From positions 1-64,000 of the forward strand of contig JANQQD010000115.1 of NCBI GenBank assembly GCA_028285185.1: a DNA stretch of 64,000 nt, given 5' to 3'. Position 1 is the stretch's first letter. Every line of letters begins with the position of its first letter. Below the pieces are notes generated by a model. It worked only from the letters and a program-made list of their open reading frames with translations, had not been told where the DNA came from and searched no databases. Positions 44,957 to 62,106 of this stretch are shown here, in pieces. Made by a program: the position numbers and the translations under genes. The stretch comes from Anaerolineae bacterium (GTDB lineage Bacteria; Pseudomonadota; Alphaproteobacteria; DSM-16000; Inquilinaceae).

Positions 44957-45043
44957 GCGGTCGTGGCGGAATTGGTAGACGCGCAGCGTTGAGGTCGCTG
45001 TGGGGTAACACCCGTGGAAGTTCGAGTCTTCTCGACCGCACCA
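44957..45043 (+). tRNA. tRNA-Leu (anticodon GAG)
   Basis: The acceptor stem GCGGTCG (44957-44963) pairs with CGACCGC before discriminator A and encoded CCA. The D arm TGGCGGAATTGGTAGACGC, the anticodon loop TTGAGGT in a CAGCG/CGCTG stem, a long variable arm (TGTGGGGTAACACCCGTG) and a T arm GAAGTTCGAGTCTTC are all present. The long variable arm and anticodon GAG identify leucine (CUC/CUU codons). Its 3' end serves as the integration site of the adjacent island and is kept intact. Confidence 0.97.
45021..45043. other. attL (tRNA-Leu 3' end)
   Basis: 23 bases starting TTCGAGTCTTCTCGACCGCA, covering the T-arm 3' half, acceptor strand and CCA of tRNA-Leu. The same 23 bases recur at 60555-60577; flanking bases differ on both sides (G before and T after here; T before and A after there). 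Confidence 0.93.
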
Positions 45044-45098: not shown

Positions 45099-45150
45099 GT
45101 TTGTGTCACATTTTGTGCTACATTTTGTGTTACACGGCTGTAGCACAAAG
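45099..45150. repeat. Left arm-type integrase binding sites
   Basis: Three direct copies of a TTTGTGYYACA motif (TTTGTGTCACA, TTTGTGCTACA, TTTGTGTTACA) spaced 12 bases apart, then an inverted copy CTGTAGCACAAAG. The same arrangement recurs at 60446-60495 inside the other end. They lie between attL and the integrase ATG, as expected for arm sites that also autoregulate int. Confidence 0.75.
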
Positions 45151-45162
45151 TGGAGAATCAGC

Positions 45163-46695
45163 ATGGCGCGGAAAGTGGACGGGGCGCAGATCAGGGGCGG
45201 CAGGTATTACCTCAACATTCGGATTCCGGTGGAGGCGAGGGCGGCATTCGACGGGAAGACGCATCTTCGGGATGCGCTCAAGACCGCTGACCCGAAGGTC
45301 GCCGAACAGAAGGTCACGCTGGCACGAGCGCAGATTATCGAAGCGGAGAACAGCGCCCGTCAGGGCGCCAATCTGTCCGACGCGATAGCCGCGCTCCCCG
45401 CCGATCAGCGCCGCCTACTGGACGATGCAGGCGGTCTCGACGGGCTCTTGAAAGAGTATGAGCGTAGCAGGGTCGCCGCCGCTTTCACGGCAGTGGGGGA
45501 CGATTACGGCGAGCCGCTAGACCCTCGCGAGGCGCGTCTACAAGAGGCGCAGGACAGGGCCGCTCACAACGTCATGGTTGACGAAGCGAAGCGCGAAGCG
45601 AAAGCGCTGACTGCACTCGGGCAGGCCGTGGCACCGCTCACCGTTGCCGCCGGTGTGACCGGTCTGCGCGAGCTAGCCGCTGCCTACTGTGAAGCGAAGA
45701 ACACGGCTCCGGGGACGCGAGAAGCCATTGAGGCGGTGGTCAGGCGGTTCATTGAGTATCACGGCGACGTGGCGCTAGAAGACCTGACCACTGCCCATCT
45801 GCGCGAGTATGCGACCGCCGCCAAAGGTCTGCCGCGTGTCACGTCCTCGAAGAAACTGAGGGGAATGGCGATGCCCGACCTGTTGCGCGTTGCCAAGGCG
45901 CAGGGGCTCGAAACGATAGGCGAGTCGACGCTGGACCGGCACGTGTCCATGCTCAAGGCGCTCACCGCCTTCGCCGTCCCTCAAGGCTTCATGATCACCG
46001 ACCCTTGGGCTCAGTTTAAGGTCATCCGCCCCCGGACCAAACATGCCACGAAGACCAAGGCCCGCGCACCATTCGTGCCCACCGACGCCGCCCGGATACT
46101 CGCCTACGCCCGGAACGAATACGACCCGGCGACTATCGACCGGTGGGCGCCGGTCTTGGCCTGTTATCAGGGCGCGAGGCGCGAAGAGATTGGCCAGATG
46201 GTGGTGGGCGATATCTTTGAGAGTGATGGCGTGTGGGCCATGCGGATCACCGATCTGGAAGACGGGCAGCGGATCAAGAACGCGGTGAGCTTGAGGACGA
46301 TACCGCTGCACCCCAAGGTCATCGCCGAAGGTTTTACGACGTTTGCGAAAGGGCAGGGCGGGCGTGACGGGTATCTGTTCAGCGAAAAAGAGCGGTGGAG
46401 CAGCAAGCTTAGGCTGATGACACCGGACGCGCGTGAGCGCGTGACAGAACGCTATGGCAAGCGCTTCTCGCGGATGTTGCGCGAGAAACTGGATATCAAA
46501 GACGGGCGGTATGTCTTTCATAGCTTCCGCCACCTTTGGGAAGACGCCGCCGAAGATGCGGAGATGCCGCAAACACATCGGCGAGCGCTGGCAGGGCGGT
46601 CCAAGGCGGGCGATAGCCAAGCTGGATATGGTGACGGGCCGCAATTGAAAGCGCTGGCGAAGAGTTTGGCGAAGATTGATCCGCTAACTAATTGA
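45163..46695 (+). CDS. int: Tyrosine-family integrase of the island
   Basis: 510-residue phage-type tyrosine recombinase. An N-terminal arm-binding region (about 1-90) is followed by a core-binding SAM-like domain (about 165-290) and the catalytic domain. Active residues seen are R339 (YQGARREE), H453 and R456 (HSFRHLWED) and nucleophile Y489 (SQAGYGDG); the usual second His is Arg479. It would recombine the 23-bp tRNA-Leu att sites. ATG at 45163 follows GGAG by 7 bases; the arm-type repeats end 12 bases before it, so Int may repress its own promoter. Confidence 0.93.
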   Translation: MARKVDGAQIRGGRYYLNIRIPVEARAAFDGKTHLRDALKTADPKVAEQKVTLARAQIIEAENSARQGANLSDAIAALPADQRRLLDDAGGLDGLLKEYERSRVAAAFTAVGDDYGEPLDPREARLQEAQDRAAHNVMVDEAKREAKALTALGQAVAPLTVAAGVTGLRELAAAYCEAKNTAPGTREAIEAVVRRFIEYHGDVALEDLTTAHLREYATAAKGLPRVTSSKKLRGMAMPDLLRVAKAQGLETIGESTLDRHVSMLKALTAFAVPQGFMITDPWAQFKVIRPRTKHATKTKARAPFVPTDAARILAYARNEYDPATIDRWAPVLACYQGARREEIGQMVVGDIFESDGVWAMRITDLEDGQRIKNAVSLRTIPLHPKVIAEGFTTFAKGQGGRDGYLFSEKERWSSKLRLMTPDARERVTERYGKRFSRMLREKLDIKDGRYVFHSFRHLWEDAAEDAEMPQTHRRALAGRSKAGDSQAGYGDGPQLKALAKSLAKIDPLTN

Positions 46696-49617: not shown

Positions 49618-52035
49618 TTGAGCAATCTTGAACGGCTCTTTGAGTCTCAGCAAGCGCACGGCGCGCTTTGGGATTTGCCCTATTCCGACGGTTTTCAGGA
49701 TGATTACGCAAGCATCCTCATGGAAGAGGCTCACGCTGATCTGGAGCGCTTGATATACCAGAAGAACGATGCTGCGTTCTGTGAGGATCAAGGACGTGCC
49801 CTGCCTAAGCGGGGCGTGCTGACTCGCACCTTGGATAATGTGCTTTTCAGCACGGCGCTTGCCGAGTCCGAAGAGATTAGGCTTGAACTAGGCATCGAGG
49901 ATGCGACCTGTTTGGGCGAGACCTTGCTTGAATTGATTGAGGACCCATGCTGGCCGCGTGACCTTCTGCTTGGCCGCGTTCAGGATAAGTTGGGCTATAG
50001 CGAAGGGCAGGTCCGAAAGGCATACCGCGAAGCCGCGCGACGCGTTTCCTCGGCTCAGATTGAATGTGCGACGCCGTTGCCGCCCAAGCCGCCGCAGAAG
50101 GACGACCGGTCAGCCGTCTATCGTGTGATAGACAAGGCTCTCGCCGCCCTTCCGCGCGAGGTCACCGACCTGAAACTTAATCAGGCAGTCATTGGAATCG
50201 CCAAGCGCTCCGACTTCGACCGCAATGCGAAAGACTATCTGGTCGGACAGATCGCCGCCAATACCTACATGGGCAAGACCGCCGCCCGGGAGACGGTCAA
50301 AGACGCTGAGAAGATAGTGACAGGGGCGAAGCGGCCTAAAGCGCGAAAGGGGCACGGGGTCATTGTCTTGGGAGATCACCGCGCTGACAGCGACGCCGCC
50401 TATAAGATCATGACGACGCAAGGTGACGACCCAGACATCTTCCAGAACGGCGGGCGGATGACTGAGGTGTTGGAAGACGAAAACGGTAACATCCGTATCG
50501 GCGCAATCCTAAAACCGCGCTTTAAGGGCGGGCACCTTGAGGAGCGTATAGACTTCTACCGCGAGACGGCGAAGGCGACATACAATACGAGCGCCCCGGA
50601 CGCGCTGGTGAACCGCGTCTATGAGATGCCGCTGGCGTGCTATCCGTCGCTCTATCGGATCACCAGTTTTCCGACCTACTCCAAAGAACTCGCCTTGGTA
50701 ATGGACCCCGGATTCCACACCGAAAGCGGCCTCTATCACAAGCCAAAATCGGGCATCGATATTCCGCCGGTGCCCGAGTTTCCGACAAAGGAAGAGGTTG
50801 AGGCCGCGCGGGATGTGCTGGTCGATCTGTTCGCCGATTTCCCGCTGGACGGGATGACGCGGGCCGAAATCGAAGACGCGGTTGCTAATGGTGAACCGGT
50901 GCCATCACTCGCACATACGCTATCGGTGCCGCTGACTCCGATCATGCGCGACGCCATCAACGGCCCGACGCCCAATCACTTGGGCCGGAAGGACAAGCCG
51001 CGCAGTGGCGCGACGTTGCTTATGAGCGCCGCGAGTTGCGTCGGGACACTTGAACCAGCGGCCCCTCAGCCGCTCCCGGAAAACCGGGCGGAGGTGCAAA
51101 AGACGCTGACAGCAATCATTGATTCCGGTGAGCCTTTCGCTTTCTTCGATAATCTGCCGAAAGGTGAGACGACCGAGTCCGATGAACTTGCGGCGGCGAT
51201 GACCGCATATCCCGAATACACCGGGCGGCGGCTCGGGGTGACCGGAATGGTCAAGGGGCGTGTCACGCAAACATGGCTGACCTCAGGCAACCGCACGCAA
51301 CTGTCAGAGCAATTGCGTGAACGGACTCTGTTGATCGACGTTGATCCGAAGATGGAGCGGCCCGGCGAGCGACCGGATAACCTGTTCAAGTACGTCCCGC
51401 TCGTTCCGCATATTCAGGATAATGCAGGCCGCTACATTCATGCGCTGTTGACGCTGGTCCAAAACTGGAAGGCGAAGGGCTGCCCGCCATGGAAAGGGCA
51501 GGCGCTCGGCGGATTCGAGGATCATGCGCGAGTGGTGGGCGGCATTCTGGACGCCGCTGGCATCTTCGGATTCATGGGCAACCGGGACAAGTTGCGGGCC
51601 AAGATGGCGGTTGCCGAGGACCCGGAAACCGAACTTCTCGATGCCATGATCGAAGAACACCACCGCGAGTCGACCCTGTTTCGAATCTGGGGCGCTGACG
51701 CGCCACCCGATCAGATCAAAAACGATGCCGGTGATCTGGTGCCGTTCGAATACGCAAGGCATCGGGTCGTTTCAGTCCGCGAACTTCTGGTGCGCGAACA
51801 GATCGCTATCAAGCATTGGGGATATGACTTCGAAGACGGCGACATCATCTATCGGTCCAAGTCCAAGGCCAAAATGACTTACCACTTTGGTGCGATGGAG
51901 GGCACGACGCGCGAATGGCGCGACGCCCAGACCGAAGATGCGGCGATGCACGGTCGGTATGTGCTAGTGAAGGTCCACAAGGACAATCGCGGGAACCTGT
52001 ATCGCTTGGATCAGTTGGAGCTGATCGGGCACTAA
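49618..52035 (+). CDS. Primase/helicase-like replication protein with degenerate P-loop
   Basis: 805-residue protein. The C-terminal half follows the island/phage DNA helicase-like ATPase pattern: leader SGLYHKPKSGIDIPPVPEFPTKEE, a P-loop position reading PRSGATLL where GSGKTLL is expected (Lys replaced by Ala), Walker B-like FAFFDNLPKG, sensor-1 TWLTSGNRTQL, arginine region LRERT, and the tail LGGFEDHARVVGGILDAAGIFGFMGNRD. The N-terminal 250 residues are helical and unassigned. The start is a TTG after GGAAG. It ends 20 bases before a 12-bp repeat cluster, so it may be the initiator binding there. Missing Lys suggests lost ATP hydrolysis or another mechanism. Confidence 0.65.
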   Translation: MSNLERLFESQQAHGALWDLPYSDGFQDDYASILMEEAHADLERLIYQKNDAAFCEDQGRALPKRGVLTRTLDNVLFSTALAESEEIRLELGIEDATCLGETLLELIEDPCWPRDLLLGRVQDKLGYSEGQVRKAYREAARRVSSAQIECATPLPPKPPQKDDRSAVYRVIDKALAALPREVTDLKLNQAVIGIAKRSDFDRNAKDYLVGQIAANTYMGKTAARETVKDAEKIVTGAKRPKARKGHGVIVLGDHRADSDAAYKIMTTQGDDPDIFQNGGRMTEVLEDENGNIRIGAILKPRFKGGHLEERIDFYRETAKATYNTSAPDALVNRVYEMPLACYPSLYRITSFPTYSKELALVMDPGFHTESGLYHKPKSGIDIPPVPEFPTKEEVEAARDVLVDLFADFPLDGMTRAEIEDAVANGEPVPSLAHTLSVPLTPIMRDAINGPTPNHLGRKDKPRSGATLLMSAASCVGTLEPAAPQPLPENRAEVQKTLTAIIDSGEPFAFFDNLPKGETTESDELAAAMTAYPEYTGRRLGVTGMVKGRVTQTWLTSGNRTQLSEQLRERTLLIDVDPKMERPGERPDNLFKYVPLVPHIQDNAGRYIHALLTLVQNWKAKGCPPWKGQALGGFEDHARVVGGILDAAGIFGFMGNRDKLRAKMAVAEDPETELLDAMIEEHHRESTLFRIWGADAPPDQIKNDAGDLVPFEYARHRVVSVRELLVREQIAIKHWGYDFEDGDIIYRSKSKAKMTYHFGAMEGTTREWRDAQTEDAAMHGRYVLVKVHKDNRGNLYRLDQLELIGH

Positions 52036-52055: not shown

Positions 52056-52448
52056 GGTGCTAGGGTCGGTGCTAGGGTGGTGCCAGCCTCTGACCCTAGC
52101 ACCGATTTTTGACCACTTGATCAAATTTCCGGTCCGCCAATCTGCGACGCGGTGCTGGGGTCGGTGCTAGCCTCGACCCTAGAACTACCCTAGCACCGAC
52201 CCTAGCACCGCAATTACGCCAATGATTCCATTGCCTTACGGCTTGCGGTGCTAGGGTCGGTGCGGTGCTAGCCTTTTCTCAGGTGAGAGCTTCAGAAAAT
52301 AATTCAGCGGATTCGGCACAATTCTGGCGCACGACATGTTATCAAAAGCGAATTGGTGAGGAGTCGTGCATTGATAACATGTTGTGCAGGTCGAAAAATC
52401 TCTACCGCCCCTCGGGTCGCTCAGAGGCTAGCACCGCGCCGACCCTAG
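52056..52448. repeat. Cluster of 12-bp repeats (iteron-like, putative origin)
   Basis: Core unit GGTGCTAGGGTC and variants. Copies: 52056-52067 and 52068-52079 (tandem), inverted 52092-52103, 52151-52162 (CTGGGG variant) and 52163-52174 (GGTGCTAGCCTC), inverted 52175-52186 (partial), 52186-52197 and 52198-52209, forward 52247-52258 and 52264-52275, inverted 52424-52435. A further inverted copy begins at 52441 and is completed at 53328 beyond the IS. Units abut without gaps. Position after the primase/helicase-like gene suits a replication origin; an operator array is the alternative. Confidence 0.8.
52329..52387. repeat. 17-bp inverted repeat within the origin-like region
   Basis: GCACGACATGTTATCAA (52329-52345) and TTGATAACATGTTGTGC (52371-52387) pair with one mismatch across a 25-base spacer. 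It lies in the AT-richer part of the repeat cluster. It could be an initiator or recombinase site; it does not match any dif site I can recall. Confidence 0.6.
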
Positions 52449-53253
52449 GTCACCGACTCATAAACGCGCAACCAGATGCGTGTTGCGGCGAGTTTGACGA
52501 GTGCGAGGAAGTTGGCGTCATGTTTCTCGTATCGGGTCGCGATAGCTCTGTAATGCTTGAGCTTTGAGAAGAACCGCTCGATACGGTTGCGCCGGCTGTA
52601 GGCCTGCCGATCAAGCGGCGGTGGGTCGGAGCGGCGCGGGATCGGGCGGATCACGGCGCGCGCCCCGAGCTGCGCGAGGTGGTCGCGCAGCCGGTTGCTG
52701 TCGTAAGCGGCGTCCGCCAACAGGGTCTGACCGGGACCGACCGTGCCGAGCATATCGTCGGCAGAGCGGCCGTCATGAGCCTGCCCGGCAGTCAGTTTCA
52801 AGGTGATCGGCAGACCGTTCGCATCGGTGACGGCGTGGATTTTGGTGGTCAGACCGCCCCTCGAGCGCCCCATGCAGATGGCTCGAAGGTCAGCCAGACC
52901 GGTGGTGCCGGCGGGCGCTTGGCCCCCCTTTTTGCGTTCGCTCCGTGCTGGTGAACGCGGATCGAAGAGCTGTCCACCGACTGCTCCGACCCTTCGTAAG
53001 CCGCTGACACCGCTTCGAATATCCGGTCCCACACACCCAAACGCGCCCACCTTACGAAACGATTGTAACAGGTCGTGTAGGGGCCGTAGCGGTCCGGGAT
53101 GTCGGCCCAGGGCGACCCGGTTCTCAGCCGCCAGTAAATCCCGTTCAGAACCCGCCGGTCGTCAACGCGCGGAACACCCCGTGGCTTGTTCGGCAAAAGC
53201 GGTTCGATGATCGACCATTCGAAATCGGTCAGTTCGTAGCGACGTTGGGCCAT
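52445..53253 (-). CDS. IS5-family DDE transposase, two frames joined by -1 frameshift
   Basis: Frame A (53253 down to 52849) gives the N-terminal part ELTDFEWSIIEPLLPNKPRG and the first catalytic Asp (QSVDSSSI). Frame B (to 52445) gives the second Asp (LLADAAYDSNRL) and Glu (RRNRIERFFSKLKHYRAIATRY). They overlap at AAAAAGGGGGG (minus strand, 52933-52923), a slippery run allowing -1 shift, giving a fused protein of about 269 residues. The TAG stop of frame B lies entirely within the CTAG target duplication, so the stop is supplied by the host site. Confidence 0.9.
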
Positions 53254-53323
53254 GCTGCTCTCCTCTACTCCAGGAGTGAATCAGCAATCCTATAACGACG
53301 CTACCGATTTATGAGTGCGTGAC
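52449..53323. mobile_element. IS5-family insertion sequence, 875 bp, with 4-bp CTAG duplication
   Basis: Terminal inverted repeats start GTCACCGACTCATAAA (left) and GTCACGCACTCATAAA (right, reverse complement). CTAG is duplicated at 52445-52448 and 53324-53327, the target preference of IS5 elements (YTAR). The element has split one copy of the 12-bp repeat GACCCTAGCACC at its central CTAG. Two overlapping transposase frames are present without disabling changes. Confidence 0.93.
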
Positions 53324-53558
53324 CTAGCACCGCAGAGCCGAAAATCCCCAAATCGCACTAACACCGAATGGCTGGTGCTGGCCCGCGTTAGCGGGCGTCA
53401 TTCGAAGCTGGCTGGCTGAACAGTGTTGAGAGTAGTCATGCATTCATCACGCAGGATTGAGGAATGCCCAATCGCTTCTCCCCATGGGGCTCTACTGAGT
53501 CAGTCCCACACAGGGCAGGCGAATTGCCGCATTGCGTGAGGCTCGCGTTAGTTGCCTC

Positions 53559-54536: not shown

Positions 54537-55121
54537 ATGGGCGAGTTAATCGGATATGCCCGCGTCAGTAGCGCGGGCCAGAAGCTGGACGTTCAAACAG
54601 AAGCGCTCACACGCGCGGGCGTCAGCCCGGAGCACCTTTATGCAGAGAAGGTGTCCGGCACGAAACGCGCAGGACGTGAGGCCCTAGAGGACATGCTGAG
54701 CCGTGGTATTCGCAAGGGTGATACGGTCGTGGTCACGCGCCTTGACCGTCTCGCCAGATCGTCGCGTGATCTTCACAACATCGCTCATACCCTCGAAACG
54801 AAGGGCGTTGGGCTCAAGGTCTTGGAGCAGGACATTGACACAACGACCAGTGCTGGTCGGCTCTTCTTTTCGGTGCTGAGCGCTATCAGCACATTTGAGA
54901 CTGAGATACGCAAAGAGCGTCAGCGTGAAGGCATAGAAGCCGCAAAGCGGCTGAAGGGGACCGACGCCTACGTGTTCAAGGGCCGTCCAGCGACGATAGA
55001 TGCAGAACGGATCAAGTCACTTCGCGCCAAAGGGAAGACACCCACTGCAATCGCCAAAGAGCTTGGGATAGCCCGATCCAGCGTCTATCGTCATTTGACT
55101 AGCATTGGGGCTCAAGCATGA
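54537..55121 (+). CDS. Small serine recombinase (resolvase/invertase family)
   Basis: 194-residue Tn3-type resolvase. The catalytic domain begins LIGYARVSSAGQKLDVQTEAL with nucleophile Ser11 in ARVSS; the RLDRLARSSRD arginine motif and the E-helix FSVLSAISTFETEIRKERQREGIEAAK follow. The C-terminal HTH is TPTAIAKELGIARSSVYRHL. It probably resolves cointegrates or multimers of the island or of a lost transposon; no Tn3 transposase is present. ATG 54537 follows AAGGACGG. Confidence 0.92.
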   Translation: MGELIGYARVSSAGQKLDVQTEALTRAGVSPEHLYAEKVSGTKRAGREALEDMLSRGIRKGDTVVVTRLDRLARSSRDLHNIAHTLETKGVGLKVLEQDIDTTTSAGRLFFSVLSAISTFETEIRKERQREGIEAAKRLKGTDAYVFKGRPATIDAERIKSLRAKGKTPTAIAKELGIARSSVYRHLTSIGAQA

Positions 55122-55871: not shown

Positions 55872-57734
55872 TCAACCTAGGTCGAACGCCGCATCGATCT
55901 TCTTGAACAGCTTCTCAGCCTTGGCGGCCGTGTCGCGTGGAAGGTCCTTGATTTCCTTCCATCCGTCAAAATCCTTGAGCATCTCTTTCAGCACGTGCTT
56001 CTTGTCCAAGTCGCGCCCGTGGCGGGACTTTAGCGCTGTCTCGACTCGCTTCGAAATCAAAGTAGGACCGTCGTCAGGCAAATCCTCCAACTTGATCGCC
56101 AAGCCATATGCGCGATTCACGCAATCAAGAAACCACTCGTCCGGAAATAGGTCCTCTACCGCAGAGTCCGTTTCTGTGATTCCCGCCGCCTCGCCGATCA
56201 TAAGCACCCGAAATTCGTGCCCGGTTTCGGCTGCATACTCTTTAAGGTCCATTTCGTTGATTTTGGCCCGCGCGACGTTTCCGGCTTCGTCAGAATCCAA
56301 AAGAACTGCCGCGTCCCACCTCTGACCTAGAGCGAATGCGACATACATTGGTGCTTTTGAGGAAGTCTGAGCGGGCCAGAGATAGATTTGCTCTGAAAGG
56401 CCGGTTTTTCCAGCTTTCGATAGTATGCCCGAGAGCTTGTTTATGATCAATGCATCAGTACCACCTTCGACAATCAGCACCTTTCTGTTCCCAAGCATCC
56501 CCGAAAGGTCAGGCGTGAGGCCAAGTGAGCTTTCAATTACCGCCATAGGAGCTGGCTGCGCGCTCACAACGCCGTGTGTGATCGCCACATGATGATCTTT
56601 ACTCTCCACGATGCGGACTCGTTCGGGGTTTGCTTGGTCTACCATCGATGCCAAGTGCGTTGTATAAAGAACAGTGTTTGACTCGCCGAGTCCGTCAAAG
56701 ACCCGAAGAAGATCGCGCTGACCGGTGTAGTGCAGATGAATACCCGGTTCTTCAAGTAGAAGGACGCAATTTGCAAATTCACCATTGCTAGCGTGAGTGA
56801 ATTTCCAAGCAAAAGACACATACCATCGAAAACCAGTTGAGCGACGGTTCAACCGAACGGGGAACCCAATTGCTTCATCCTCAGCAAAGATGTTTAGTGT
56901 TGGGCCATCGACGTCGATGTCGAACTTGACCTTCTTTTGAGTCCAAAGACGCTGAAACTGTTGCGTCAAATATGAAGACGCGGCCCGCTTGTCGAATTGG
57001 CGAATAGTTCGACCTTCTTTCGATTCACCCTTCTCAACGAAATCGTCAATGTCGATTTCTGCAAGGTCTAGCACAATCAGGATCGTCTGATCCTCGGGGC
57101 TCAGACTGTTTCGATTGTCTCTCCCTACTTTGTCTAGGCGGATTTTCAGGTCTGTCAACTCGACCTGCGTTCCCGAAAAGTTGTAGTCCTGAATCAAGAC
57201 AAACTTCGGCACATTCTCTCGCGCCCACTTGGAGACCCTGTCTGTGTCCATTCCAAATTCGTTGGGGTCTAGCGGGTTGCTTTCATCATCCGCTAGGGTG
57301 AAGCCGGTCTGGTAGCCATAGGACTTCCAAGCGAAGATACTGAGCGACTCCGGCAAGTCGGGCGACTCACCGGCTTCGACTGGAACTGAATCGCTTTCCT
57401 CGCCGACTTCACCATCGCCCTCTTGGTCTTCGTCAGGGCTCAACGCCGCAAATTCCTGCAACGCTGCGATATCCTCGTCGCTCAGTAGGAACTGAGCCCT
57501 ACAGACCTCCTTGCCTTCCGCATCTTTGCGCCCTTTCCAGTCGTCCACGGGCCAGTCTTCGGCAGTGTCATAGGTTGCCCCGTCAATGTAGGGGTTTAGG
57601 CAGTAGAGCGCTTCGAACAGGTTGCTCTTTCCTGCTTCGTTGGGTCCTACGAAAGCCGTAATGTCGTTGGCGTCTATCCAGCCACTTTCGATGACGTTGC
57701 GATAGTTGGAAACTCTGAATCTCTTGAGGCGCAT
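55872..57734 (-). CDS. OLD-family ATP-dependent endonuclease
   Basis: 620-residue ATPase-TOPRIM protein of the overcoming-lysogenization-defect type. The Walker A is GPNEAGKS (30-37), the ABC signature-like segment RSTGFRWYVSF lies near 298-308, Walker B is CVLLLEEPGIHLH (323-335) and a switch His is in YTTHLASMV. The TOPRIM domain has E423 (LIVEGGTDALI) and D480/D482 (VLLDSDEAGN). An acidic low-complexity insert covers 98-130. Such proteins occur alone or in phage-defence systems (OLD, Gabija GajA, PARIS-like). No GajB-type helicase is adjacent; the H-NS-like gene lies 124 bp upstream on the same strand. Confidence 0.88.
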   Translation of the reverse strand: MRLKRFRVSNYRNVIESGWIDANDITAFVGPNEAGKSNLFEALYCLNPYIDGATYDTAEDWPVDDWKGRKDAEGKEVCRAQFLLSDEDIAALQEFAALSPDEDQEGDGEVGEESDSVPVEAGESPDLPESLSIFAWKSYGYQTGFTLADDESNPLDPNEFGMDTDRVSKWARENVPKFVLIQDYNFSGTQVELTDLKIRLDKVGRDNRNSLSPEDQTILIVLDLAEIDIDDFVEKGESKEGRTIRQFDKRAASSYLTQQFQRLWTQKKVKFDIDVDGPTLNIFAEDEAIGFPVRLNRRSTGFRWYVSFAWKFTHASNGEFANCVLLLEEPGIHLHYTGQRDLLRVFDGLGESNTVLYTTHLASMVDQANPERVRIVESKDHHVAITHGVVSAQPAPMAVIESSLGLTPDLSGMLGNRKVLIVEGGTDALIINKLSGILSKAGKTGLSEQIYLWPAQTSSKAPMYVAFALGQRWDAAVLLDSDEAGNVARAKINEMDLKEYAAETGHEFRVLMIGEAAGITETDSAVEDLFPDEWFLDCVNRAYGLAIKLEDLPDDGPTLISKRVETALKSRHGRDLDKKHVLKEMLKDFDGWKEIKDLPRDTAAKAEKLFKKIDAAFDLG

Positions 57735-57858: not shown

Positions 57859-58176
57859 CTAGATCGCCAAATCTTCCGGCTTCTTCCCCGCCGCGATTGC
57901 GCTCTTGAACCATTCCGGCTGCCTTCCCTTTCCGGTCCATGTCCGCCCGGTGTCGGGGTCTTTGAACTTCGGCGTCCCTGCCTTGCCCTTCCGTTTCGCG
58001 CTCTTGGGCGCTCCACCCCCGCCCAGATCGGCGAGCGTGTATCCGAACTTCTTCGCAACCTTCTCCGCCGCAGCCTTGGCCTTTCTCAGGTCATCGGTTG
58101 ACAGCTTCTCAAGTTGATTTTCGATCCGGCTCCTGAGCTTTTCTAGCTCACCCTTGGTCATCTTCTTCACGTCCAT
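57859..58176 (-). CDS. H-NS-family nucleoid protein (xenogeneic silencer)
   Basis: 105-residue H-NS-like protein. The N-terminal 60 residues form the oligomerisation coiled coil (KGELEKLRSRIENQLEKLSTDDLRKAKAAAEKVAKKFG), and the C-terminus is the DNA-binding fold KFKDPDTGRTWTGKGRQPEWFKSAI, with the TWTGKGRQP AT-hook-like loop diagnostic of the family. Carried on islands, such proteins silence AT-rich foreign genes, here possibly the OLD gene it precedes. ATG 58176 has AGGAGA upstream. Confidence 0.92.
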   Translation of the reverse strand: MDVKKMTKGELEKLRSRIENQLEKLSTDDLRKAKAAAEKVAKKFGYTLADLGGGGAPKSAKRKGKAGTPKFKDPDTGRTWTGKGRQPEWFKSAIAAGKKPEDLAI

Positions 58177-59451: not shown

Positions 59452-60078
59452 CTAATCACGCCTTTCCACAACCTCTAACAGGTCATCCGCCAAGGGCCTC
59501 TGTAGCGTCTTGGCCTCTGCCCAAGGGGCCTCTAGCCAAACCCGCCATTCTTCCGGCTCCACCAGCACAACAGGCATAGCTTTCGGATGGATCGGTTTGA
59601 CGACTCCGTTTGGCTCGCACGTCAGAAACGCGAAAAGATCGTCAACGCTTTCGCCGTCCTTCACCTTCCGCACACTCCGCCATTCGCGAACCTCAATCCC
59701 CGCGAAGAACCCGGCCCGGTCACCGGTCAGTGCGAACCACGCGTTTCCGCCTTTGATCGGTTCGGCGAAACGGTCGAAGGGGACAAGACAGCGGTGCTCA
59801 GGGCCTAGCCACCGCCGCCAATGCGGTGAGCCCGTGTTGCGGACGTTCGTCACGCCGCGATCTGCCTTGCCTCTGATAAACTGCGGCGGCGTCGGCAGCC
59901 CCCAGCGGGCGCTGACCAATTCGAGCCCATCCGCACCGTGCCGGACAACCGGCGCATTTGTGTTTGGATAAATGCCCTGAAGGGGAGGCTGATTGCCAAG
60001 CCGATCCGTCACGTCCTGATCCGCGAACAGGCTGCGCATCGCCTCTTGTGTGCGCGTGAGATTGTAGAGGTTGCACAA
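59452..60078 (-). CDS. SRAP domain protein (YedK/HMCES family), TTG start
   Basis: 208-residue SRAP protein that would covalently cap abasic sites in single-stranded DNA through Cys2. The TTG at 60078 is preceded by GGGAGGA at ideal spacing and gives Met-Cys-Asn-Leu-Tyr-Asn, the required N-terminus. Other active residues: Asn and Arg of TNVRN, Glu in FDRFAEP, His in PIHPKAMPVVL. The frame is open 118 codons further upstream, but reading from there would bury the catalytic Cys inside the chain. On mobile elements SRAP genes often accompany DNA-repair or SOS-type cargo. Confidence 0.85.
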   Translation of the reverse strand: MCNLYNLTRTQEAMRSLFADQDVTDRLGNQPPLQGIYPNTNAPVVRHGADGLELVSARWGLPTPPQFIRGKADRGVTNVRNTGSPHWRRWLGPEHRCLVPFDRFAEPIKGGNAWFALTGDRAGFFAGIEVREWRSVRKVKDGESVDDLFAFLTCEPNGVVKPIHPKAMPVVLVEPEEWRVWLEAPWAEAKTLQRPLADDLLEVVERRD

Positions 60079-60432
60079 GCTTTCGTCCTCCCGCCCAAAC
60101 GGCAGATGCGGCGAACGATAGCTGACAGACATTGTGCTGTCCGCCAAGACAAGCTGCGGAAAGCGGGCGTGGAAGGTGCGGGCATCTTCGACGCAACGAA
60201 AGTGAAACTCGATGCCGTCGCCCAGAATCGAGTGCCCGGGCGTCGTCGCGAATTCAGTCAGTCCGAGGTTTTCGCGGAGCCAATCATGCGGATCATTCTC
60301 GCGGCCAAGCGCTGACGTGCCACCCTCGGGGATGAGAACGCGCAGCGTGACCGGCCAAGCCGTCCGGTCACGCTTCGCTTGCGGGGTGGTGCGGCGTGTC
60401 ATGAGGGCGAAACATTCCAAGAACATCCGCAA
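60079..60432 (-). CDS. Possible N-terminal ORF fused in frame to SRAP
   Basis: An open stretch of 118 codons (start 60432; Met at residue 11, MTRRTTPQAKRDRTAWPVTL, is likelier) runs without a stop into the SRAP frame. Its end FPQLVLADSTMSVSYRSPHLPFG looks like a folded small protein rather than random sequence, but I do not recognise it. Either a fused 326-residue protein is made, with SRAP also made from the internal TTG, or an original stop has been lost. Confidence 0.4.
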
Positions 60433-60445
60433 CGGTCAAGCTGCA

Positions 60446-60495
60446 CTTTGTGCTACATTTTGTGCTACACCTTGTGTCCCAACCCTGTAGCACAC
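60446..60495. repeat. Right arm-type integrase binding sites
   Basis: CTTTGTGCTACA, TTTTGTGCTACA and CCTTGTGTCCCA follow each other at 12-base spacing, then an inverted copy CTGTAGCACAC. This mirrors the left cluster at 45099-45150 in unit, spacing and orientation, lying 60 bases inside attR. Confidence 0.75.
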
Positions 60496-60537: not shown

Positions 60538-62106
60538 TCAGAAAACCAACGACTTTCGAGTCTTCTCGACCGCACCAAACCTGACTCGTTGGACTGAACC
60601 CCCCTCTAAAGCCTTGAATGGCAAGGCGATTTGGGGAGTTCTAGGTCCTTCGTTTCGACAGTACGGGATACGGTCGGCGAAGGCCAGTTTGATCACCGTG
60701 CGGCGCAAAGGTGTCGACCCGCTTTCCCAGAGTTTCCAGGGGTTTGCGAGGAACGCCAACACTGGTTCTAGTTTTTCCTCGAACGTACCGCGTGGCTTGA
60801 CCTGCTTCGTCATCTGGTCGGCGAGTTGGGCTTTCCTGAGCTCCAGTTCGGCGATCCTGTCTTCATAGGTCCGGATGACGGTGGCGTTGGTTGAGTCGAT
60901 CACCCGCGTCAGAAACGCCTCGATCTGTTTTTCGATTTCGGCGATCTGAGTCCGCGCGCTGTCCTGCGCCGTCCGCGCCCGTTCGGCGCGCGCCTCCCAG
61001 GCCGACTTGAACATTGCGCGCGCGAGGGTGACGAGGTGCTCCGTCGGCTGCAGCGCCTTGAGGAGCGCGCCGACCTCTCCCTCGATCCTGTCCCGCCGGA
61101 TGGACTTGCCATAGGCCGGACATCCTTTGGTCTGGCAGAGGTAGTAGGGGTGCCGCTGGTACTTGCCCGTGCTCCAGGAGGATCGGAGCGGCACGTTGCA
61201 TTCGCAGCAGGTGACAATGCCGCGCAGCGCAAAGTCGTCGCCGATATTCTTCCGCTTCGGCGCCTTTGCCGTGCCCTGCCGGAGCGCCTGTACCTTGTGG
61301 AAAGTGTCAGCAGAGATCAACGCCTCATGGTGCCCCTTCAGCCAGTGGATACCGTAGCGCTCGCTGACGATGTGGCCGGTATAGATCGGGTTGGTCAGGA
61401 TCTCCGTGACCTTCTGTTGCGTCACGACGCCGTGCTTGTTGCGCGGGAAGGCGGGTTGAGCGTCGAAGAAGCGCTTCACCTCGGCCTGCGATCCGAAACG
61501 GCCCGTTGCGTATCCCTCGAACGCGTCGCGGATGATCGAAGCATAGGGCTCGTCGGGGAAGAGCATCTTCCCGCGCCCTTTCACGGCACGGTAGGCGTAG
61601 CCGATGGGGCTGGCATGGACCCAATACCCGGACTGCATCCGCGCTTCCATCTTCTGGGCGACCTGGCGGCCATTCTGCTTTCTCTCCAGGGCTCCCTGAG
61701 CGGCCATGATGGTTTCGATGAACTCGTCTTCGGGCGTGTCTCCGAGCCGGAAGTTCAGGCATTCGATCTGGGCGCCCCGCTTTCGGAACGCCTCCCTGAG
61801 CTTGATGTGGAACTCGACATCGCGCGCGAAGCGCTTGAGGTCGTCGAAGATGACGACATAACGCTCGTCCGGCTGCGCATCGAGGAAACTCAGAAGCGCG
61901 ACCATGCCCGCGCGTTTCATGAAGTCGCCACCGCCGGTCACGGTGTCCGGAAAGACGGCGGCGACCTGAAGACCCTTGCTTTCGGCGAACTGCCGACAGC
62001 GGGTTTCCTGCGATTCCAACCCATGCCCTTCAGCTTCCTGTGCGCGGGAGGAGACGCGGCAATAGATGACGGCCTGTTTCGGCGCGGTCTTGTCGTCTTT
62101 TCTCAT
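60538..62106 (-). CDS. Large serine recombinase of the neighbouring element
   Basis: 522-residue large serine recombinase. The catalytic domain starts AVIYCRVSSRAQEAEGHGLESQ with nucleophile Ser19; a recombinase domain has PIGYAYRAVKGRGKMLFPDE, a zinc ribbon has CCEC and CQTKGC, and a coiled coil (RTAQDSARTQIAEIEKQIEAFL) follows. The last 13 codons read through attR (60555-60577) into island DNA and stop at 60538, so the original C-terminus was replaced when the island inserted. The ATG overlaps the stop of the upstream 92-residue gene. Confidence 0.88.
   Translation of the reverse strand: MRKDDKTAPKQAVIYCRVSSRAQEAEGHGLESQETRCRQFAESKGLQVAAVFPDTVTGGGDFMKRAGMVALLSFLDAQPDERYVVIFDDLKRFARDVEFHIKLREAFRKRGAQIECLNFRLGDTPEDEFIETIMAAQGALERKQNGRQVAQKMEARMQSGYWVHASPIGYAYRAVKGRGKMLFPDEPYASIIRDAFEGYATGRFGSQAEVKRFFDAQPAFPRNKHGVVTQQKVTEILTNPIYTGHIVSERYGIHWLKGHHEALISADTFHKVQALRQGTAKAPKRKNIGDDFALRGIVTCCECNVPLRSSWSTGKYQRHPYYLCQTKGCPAYGKSIRRDRIEGEVGALLKALQPTEHLVTLARAMFKSAWEARAERARTAQDSARTQIAEIEKQIEAFLTRVIDSTNATVIRTYEDRIAELELRKAQLADQMTKQVKPRGTFEEKLEPVLAFLANPWKLWESGSTPLRRTVIKLAFADRIPYCRNEGPRTPQIALPFKALEGGSVQRVRFGAVEKTRKSLVF
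60555..60577. other. attR (23-bp tRNA-Leu 3' end copy)
   Basis: Exact 23-base repeat of 45021-45043, containing TCGAGTCTTCTCGACCGCAC. It marks the right end of the island and lies inside the 3' end of the serine recombinase gene. Confidence 0.93.

Follow-up and report, generated by a model that had tools for sequence, protein, structure and literature searches.

The Streptomyces theta plasmid pWTY27 replicates bidirectionally and requires for its replication a 300-bp region located 3' of repA; RepA binds the iterons of this 3' region specifically, as seen by gel shift and footprinting (PMC3583192). In the phage-inducible chromosomal islands (PICIs), the origin lies immediately 3' of rep, and two sets of iterons flank an AT-rich melting region (PMC6092414). 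The stretch of DNA analysed here (the window; 64,000 nt, positions 1-64,000 of the forward strand of contig JANQQD010000115.1, assembly GCA_028285185.1) encodes an 805-residue protein, Rep, which is matched by pWTY27 RepA in blastp with E=3e-30 over residues 343-710 (28% identity over about 340 aa). In the plasmid, 10 GTGGGAAC-type sites are found directly 3' of repA, in the order + + - + + (66 bp) - - + - -.

In the window, an array of 13 copies of GGTGCTAG(GGTC/CCTC), in both orientations and partly gapless, begins 20 bases past the stop codon of the rep gene and extends between 52056 and 53331 (Table 1), which confirms the repeat cluster announced behind this gene by the original prediction. 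Twelve copies are intact and one is split by an insertion sequence; all are contained within 52056-52448, except the last 4 bases of the split copy (53328-53331), and two degenerate copies are found beyond the array, at about 53357 and 53374. Copies follow each other without a gap, at 12-bp steps, at 52056/52068, 52151/52163 and 52186/52198; the steps at 52068/52079 and 52175/52186 measure 11 bp. The two kinds of copy ending reported earlier are real: four copies end with GCCT(C/T) and all the others with GGGT-, and they may, as suggested then, stand for two site classes. The copies are grouped in blocks A to D, in the order + + +, -, + +, - - -, + +, - -, and blocks C and D mirror each other over 24 nt at 96%. 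The longest alternating purine-pyrimidine tract in the centre of the array has a length of 7. The 17-bp inverted repeat present in the spacer has no second occurrence in the 64-kb window.

Table 1. Coordinates of the iterons, the neighbouring genes and the ends of the integrated element, in window numbering.
Feature	Position	Strand	Remarks
attL	45021..45043	+	3' end of tRNA-Leu(GAG) (44957-45043), core TTCGAGTCTTCTCGACCGCACCA
Tyrosine integrase	45103..46695	+	DUF6538 + phage integrase
Rep, 805 aa	49618..52035	+	Predicted SF3-type AAA+ helicase core (residues about 245-665)
Plus-strand copies	52056, 52068, 52079, 52151, 52163, 52247, 52264	+	GGTGCCAGCCTC at 52079, GGTGCTGGGGTC at 52151
Minus-strand copies	52092, 52175, 52186, 52198, 52424, 52441-52448 continued at 53328-53331	-	AGTTCTAGGGTC at 52175, weak
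Iteron block A	52056..52103		+ + + - (52056, 52068, 52079; 52092 minus)
Iteron block B	52151..52209		+ + - - - (52151, 52163; 52175, 52186, 52198 minus)
Iteron block C	52247..52275	+	+ + (52247, 52264)
Spacer	52276..52423		148 bp, AT content 52%; flanked by blocks C and D, which are inverted to each other
17-bp inverted repeat	52329..52387		GCACGACATGTTATCAA / TTGATAACATGTTGTGC, 25-nt loop, inside the spacer
Iteron block D	52424..52448	-	An intact minus copy, then the initial 8 bp of the IS-split one
IS5-type insertion	52449..53323	-	DUF4096/DDE transposase, two frames; not part of the origin
Last 4 bp of split iteron	53328..53331	-	IS flanks join to CCGACCCTAGCACCGC
Serine recombinase	54537-55121		
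OLD/AriA/GajA-like AAA ATPase	55872-57734	-	Weak TOPRIM match
H-NS-type protein	57859-58176		
SRAP (HMCES/YedK-like) protein	59452-60432	-	Right end of island
attR	60555..60577	+	Same 23 bp as the tRNA 3' end, without mismatch

The array is not a chance arrangement, since the best 9-mer occurs at 10 sites per 600 bp (mean of 3.3 and maximum of 5 in 100 shuffles) and the combination of a gapless 12-bp tandem and an inverted copy of it, seen in the window, arose in none of the shuffles. All four occurrences of the exact 12-mer in the whole genome (7.0 Mb) are inside the array, so the 12-mer is not a repeat scattered over the host chromosome; copies with one mismatch found elsewhere in the genome are single and scattered. 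A known RNA in the array region was considered and set aside, as Rfam gave only chance-level microRNA matches and a sub-threshold match to ar35. The strong folding of the strand (z=-12) was not accepted as evidence of an RNA, because such folding is a by-product of the inverted repeats.

The extent of 52056-53340 originally assigned to the cluster holds for the repeats, but 52449-53323 within it is an IS5-type insertion foreign to the array. The insertion has imperfect terminal inverted repeats, two minus-strand frames for its transposase (52849-53253 and 52445-53050) and a CTAG target duplication at 52445-52448 / 53324-53327. When the flanks are rejoined, one further iteron (CCGACCCTAGCACC) is restored. 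No second full copy of the element was found in the 7.0-Mb genome. The insertion site is explained by the CTAG target preference, as this tetranucleotide is abundant in the array (11 in 413 bp vs 65 in the 64-kb window).

The array is located on an element of ~15.5 kb integrated in tRNA-Leu(GAG) and bordered by a 23-bp att repeat; the GC content drops from 65-70% outside to 53-60% inside. The integrase, the tRNA target and the att repeats mark it as a mobile element. Repeats of the TTGTGCTACA type, which are probable arm-type integrase sites, are present at both ends (45100-45150 and 60448-60470). A search for the empty site in five relatives gave the tRNA-Leu together with its left flank, and no right flank joined to them. 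The OLD/AriA/GajA-like ATPase is likely an anti-phage defence gene, for which no partner was identified. Among the island genes scanned against Pfam and PHROG, no virion, AlpA or terminase genes were recognised, and the upstream island frames scanned gave no primase family, although a primase may have escaped recognition.

The frame of rep is intact over its 805 codons. Sequence searches of Pfam, NCBIfam and PDB assigned the protein to no family, and a lone kinase match was dismissed as meaningless; PHROG 10537 and phage proteins match its residues about 190-680. The structure was modelled from 21 sequences (alignment A2), with pLDDT mostly of 70-97 over residues 245-665 and low confidence for the N- and C-terminal parts. 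In the model, the core is predicted to have the SF3 AAA+ fold, with Foldseek similarity to the SF3 helicases of AsfvPrimPol, the SaPI5 primase-helicase 7ola, D5/E5, NrS-1 and SV40 T antigen. The gene had been described as primase/helicase-like: the helicase part stands, as an SF3-type AAA+ core, but the primase domain was not found, nor any other recognisable N-terminal module in the window Rep. In the homologues the N-terminal modules vary (DUF7146-Toprim, Prim-Pol or polymerase). The 245 residues before the core and the 140 after it are unassigned; given their low-confidence models, no DNA-binding domain is claimed. The Walker A motif is degenerate (PRSGATLL, 50959-51042 of the window) and has no lysine; the Walker B (FFDN) and the TSGN sensor are intact, and the Walker B and T/S-GN sensor are conserved. 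Of the 21 sequences in alignment A2, 20 have no lysine in Walker A; this residue is present in pWTY27, other actinobacterial plasmid proteins and the homologue L143.

The closest relative of Rep, and the only close one found, is encoded in an Octadecabacter MAG (locus L011; 60% identity). Such relatives are evidently rare, since a scan of viral contigs with the single Rep protein, a search with the 12-mer tandem pattern and a search with the two-sequence alignment (window and L011) all returned nothing further. Directly after rep, L011 carries GGTGGTAGGTC-type units in both orientations, with a serine recombinase gene further on. A weight matrix made from the window units only finds 6 sites there (P=0.004; 1.5 on average in shuffled sequence) and no more than 3 in any of 82 other L011 contig stretches; on this count the L011 site is diverged yet recognisable. 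Taken on its own, the L011 array is weak (5 sites, with up to 4 in shuffles). The order of rep, array (CCAAATACA, 8 sites) and serine recombinase is found also in Lutimaribacter L040, whose Rep is 32% identical. The recombinases of L040 (10379-11086) and L011 (3641-4321), both of them Rhodobacterales elements, are 73% identical to each other; that of the window, in the equivalent relative place, is only 26% identical to the one of L011.

Among other homologues, arrays are carried by the plasmids L172-L174 and L009; L177 (Methanothrix), with 9 sites vs up to 7 in shuffles, is a borderline case. No array above the shuffles was found in L175 (Cereibacter), L176 (Legionella) and the phages L178 and L179, and none next to the gene in the nearest virulent-phage relatives, L008, L091 and L092. 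The homologues counted as lacking an array, a finding that the original prediction had named as adverse, are only distant relatives, the large proteins of virulent phages (L008, L091, L092, L178 and L179); in the nearest homologue a diverged array is retained.

In 132 non-redundant homologues, the sequence between the end of the helicase part and a point 450 bp past the stop codon was then tested for gapless tandem units accompanied, at no more than 220 bp, by inverted copies of that unit. For a unit length of 9, the test is passed by 103 of the 132 homologues (many of these loci are related, so that the family counts are not independent events) and by none in five rounds of shuffling; other unit lengths give next to nothing, except the window at 12. 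Control stretches never pass (0/131 just upstream in the same genes and 0/1106 elsewhere in the same loci; 0/1237 together). In 97 of the 103 both arms of the array precede the stop codon, and the iterons are therefore overprinted on the C-terminal tail of Rep, where they read as tripeptide repeats (GEP, GSP, CEP, GSQ), for example GEP-GEP-GEP or GSP-GSR-GSP; L112, L094, L016, L127, L023 and about 92 other loci are of this kind. The strand order plus-minus-plus-minus-plus-minus is observed in 67/103 (9.4 expected from shuffling). An alternating purine-pyrimidine tract occupies the centre; its median length is 28 nt, and it reaches at least 16 nt in 92/103 arrays vs 4/856 control stretches. In the tree, the arrays are distributed over several well separated branches, and none is found in the virulent-phage branch nearest to the window.

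Origins inside initiator genes occur elsewhere, as in phage lambda O. In the present case, it is more likely than not that the primase-helicases of mobile elements include a large lineage whose origin is the overprinted tail of the primase-helicase gene itself, with 9-bp iterons in the order + +, -, + + +, (54-74 bp), - - -, + +, - placed round an alternating purine-pyrimidine (Z-DNA-prone) tract. Within the same proposal, the window would carry a derived form, with its origin placed entirely downstream of the gene, longer units of 12 bp, a hairpin spacer replacing the tract and a Rep without the Walker A lysine. Searches of the open literature, which reach only a part of the publications, returned no case of 9-bp iterons overprinted in this way round an alternating centre.

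Very probably, the array in the window provides the iterons for a theta-type (double-strand-opening) origin belonging to the integrated element, with the Rep encoded immediately upstream as the protein that recognises them. Its anatomy, its non-randomness, its restriction to a single locus and the conservation of its position in the nearest homologue are established, and the order of gene followed by iterons is common to many homologues, including the experimentally proven pWTY27. The origin recognised by an adjacent initiator, as first proposed, thus gains support from the L011 array, the 3' arrays of distant homologues and the published binding of pWTY27 RepA. On the other side we count the virulent-phage relatives without an array (L008, L091, L092), units of 12 bp and not 8-9 bp, the absent alternating centre, a block order that is the same as the common order of the family with a chance of 0.086, the lack of a separate primase recognised on the island, and the weakness of the L011 array alone. 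Since the general block order is kept but the alternating tract is absent, the window is, judged by its sequence, a divergent form of the family origin. In the proposed mechanism, the tyrosine integrase would first excise the element, and Rep would then bind the direct and inverted iterons cooperatively, bending or looping the DNA over the spacer. This 148-bp stretch, which blocks C and D border as mirror images and which holds the 17-bp hairpin repeat, is the best candidate for the melting region; once opened, it could be loaded with the Rep ring and/or the host helicase and primase, leading to bidirectional replication. As this Rep, like most of its alphaproteobacterial relatives, has no Walker A lysine, the ring may serve more for origin binding, as a scaffold or loader, than in the manner of a canonical ATP-driven helicase.

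Iterons often double as copy control, and the array, which rep precedes and other genes follow, could in principle be an operator or an incompatibility/copy-control locus, through which Rep or a small island protein autoregulates or handcuffs origins while replication starts elsewhere. We regard this as improbable: the array is 3' of rep, outside its promoter, it is placed within the coding tail in 97 homologues, and in the homologous pWTY27 the 3' array is itself needed for replication (PMC3583192). A partition (centromere-like) or recombination site, serving for example the serine recombinase or the tyrosine integrase, is highly improbable. Arm-type repeats belonging to the integrase lie at each island end, ParA/ParB was not recognised among the island's genes, and the arrays accompany rep throughout the family, even where no recombinase adjoins. 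A serine recombinase gene does follow the array in the window, in L011 and in L040, with only 26% identity between the first two; the 17-bp inverted repeat resembles a two-armed recombinase site and may be all that the recombinase uses.

The split iteron, with its clean CTAG duplication in a CTAG-rich array, leaves some room for a decaying former origin, broken by the IS and with no present function, and the origin may indeed no longer be under selection. This reading, which overlaps with the preferred one on the identity of the array, is considered rather unlikely, as the Rep frame is intact, the outermost copy alone is struck, the other copies are well preserved and the target preference alone accounts for the site of insertion.

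With the array taken as the origin of the element, the island gains a concrete and testable replicon, composed of rep and about 420 bp, and a protein with no Pfam or NCBIfam match gains a likely function as an origin-binding Rep. If the proposal for the family is true, origins can be read straight from the sequence in more than 100 elements, and iterons and Rep proteins that diverge together form a natural series with which the DNA-binding part could be mapped.

In respect to the known systems, pWTY27 shares with the window a homologous helicase-type RepA followed by short iterons in both orientations. It differs in being a free actinobacterial plasmid, with 7-8-bp units at 9-11-bp steps and with the Walker A lysine present (MGSGKS), and it needs a separate RepB primase-polymerase, cotranscribed with repA, whereas none was recognised in the upstream island frames scanned. 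The PICIs (SaPIs and E. coli PICIs; PMC6092414) resemble the window as integrase islands of roughly 15 kb with a specific att site and a primase-helicase-type Rep, directly 3' of which lie the origin in the PICIs and the array in the window; the SaPI5 protein 7ola has, according to Foldseek, an SF3 fold related to that of the window Rep. No sequence relation to the PICIs was detected, however, the iterons differ in sequence and length, and no AlpA/Stl-type regulator, terS, packaging or capsid-interference gene was recognised among the island genes scanned. The window matches the PICI origin layout in position and in its inverted iteron sets, but its spacer, where the PICIs have an AT-rich stretch, is only 52% AT in an island of ~42-45% AT.

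The DUF7146-Toprim primase-helicases of alphaproteobacterial prophages (for example L112, L094 and L016) have a homologous helicase domain (26-31%) and a similarly placed array, but unlike the window they show 9-bp units, an array within the coding tail, an alternating purine-pyrimidine centre and an N-terminal Toprim. The closest named relatives of Rep after L011 are the polymerase-helicases of virulent phages (Ruegeria phage RpAliso, phrog_10537; 33%), which differ by their length of 1200-1300 aa, their setting in phages of roughly 150 kb and the lack of an iteron array beside the gene. The type of origin is already known; this variant of it is new in its 12-bp unit, its setting on an island and its Rep without the Walker A lysine.
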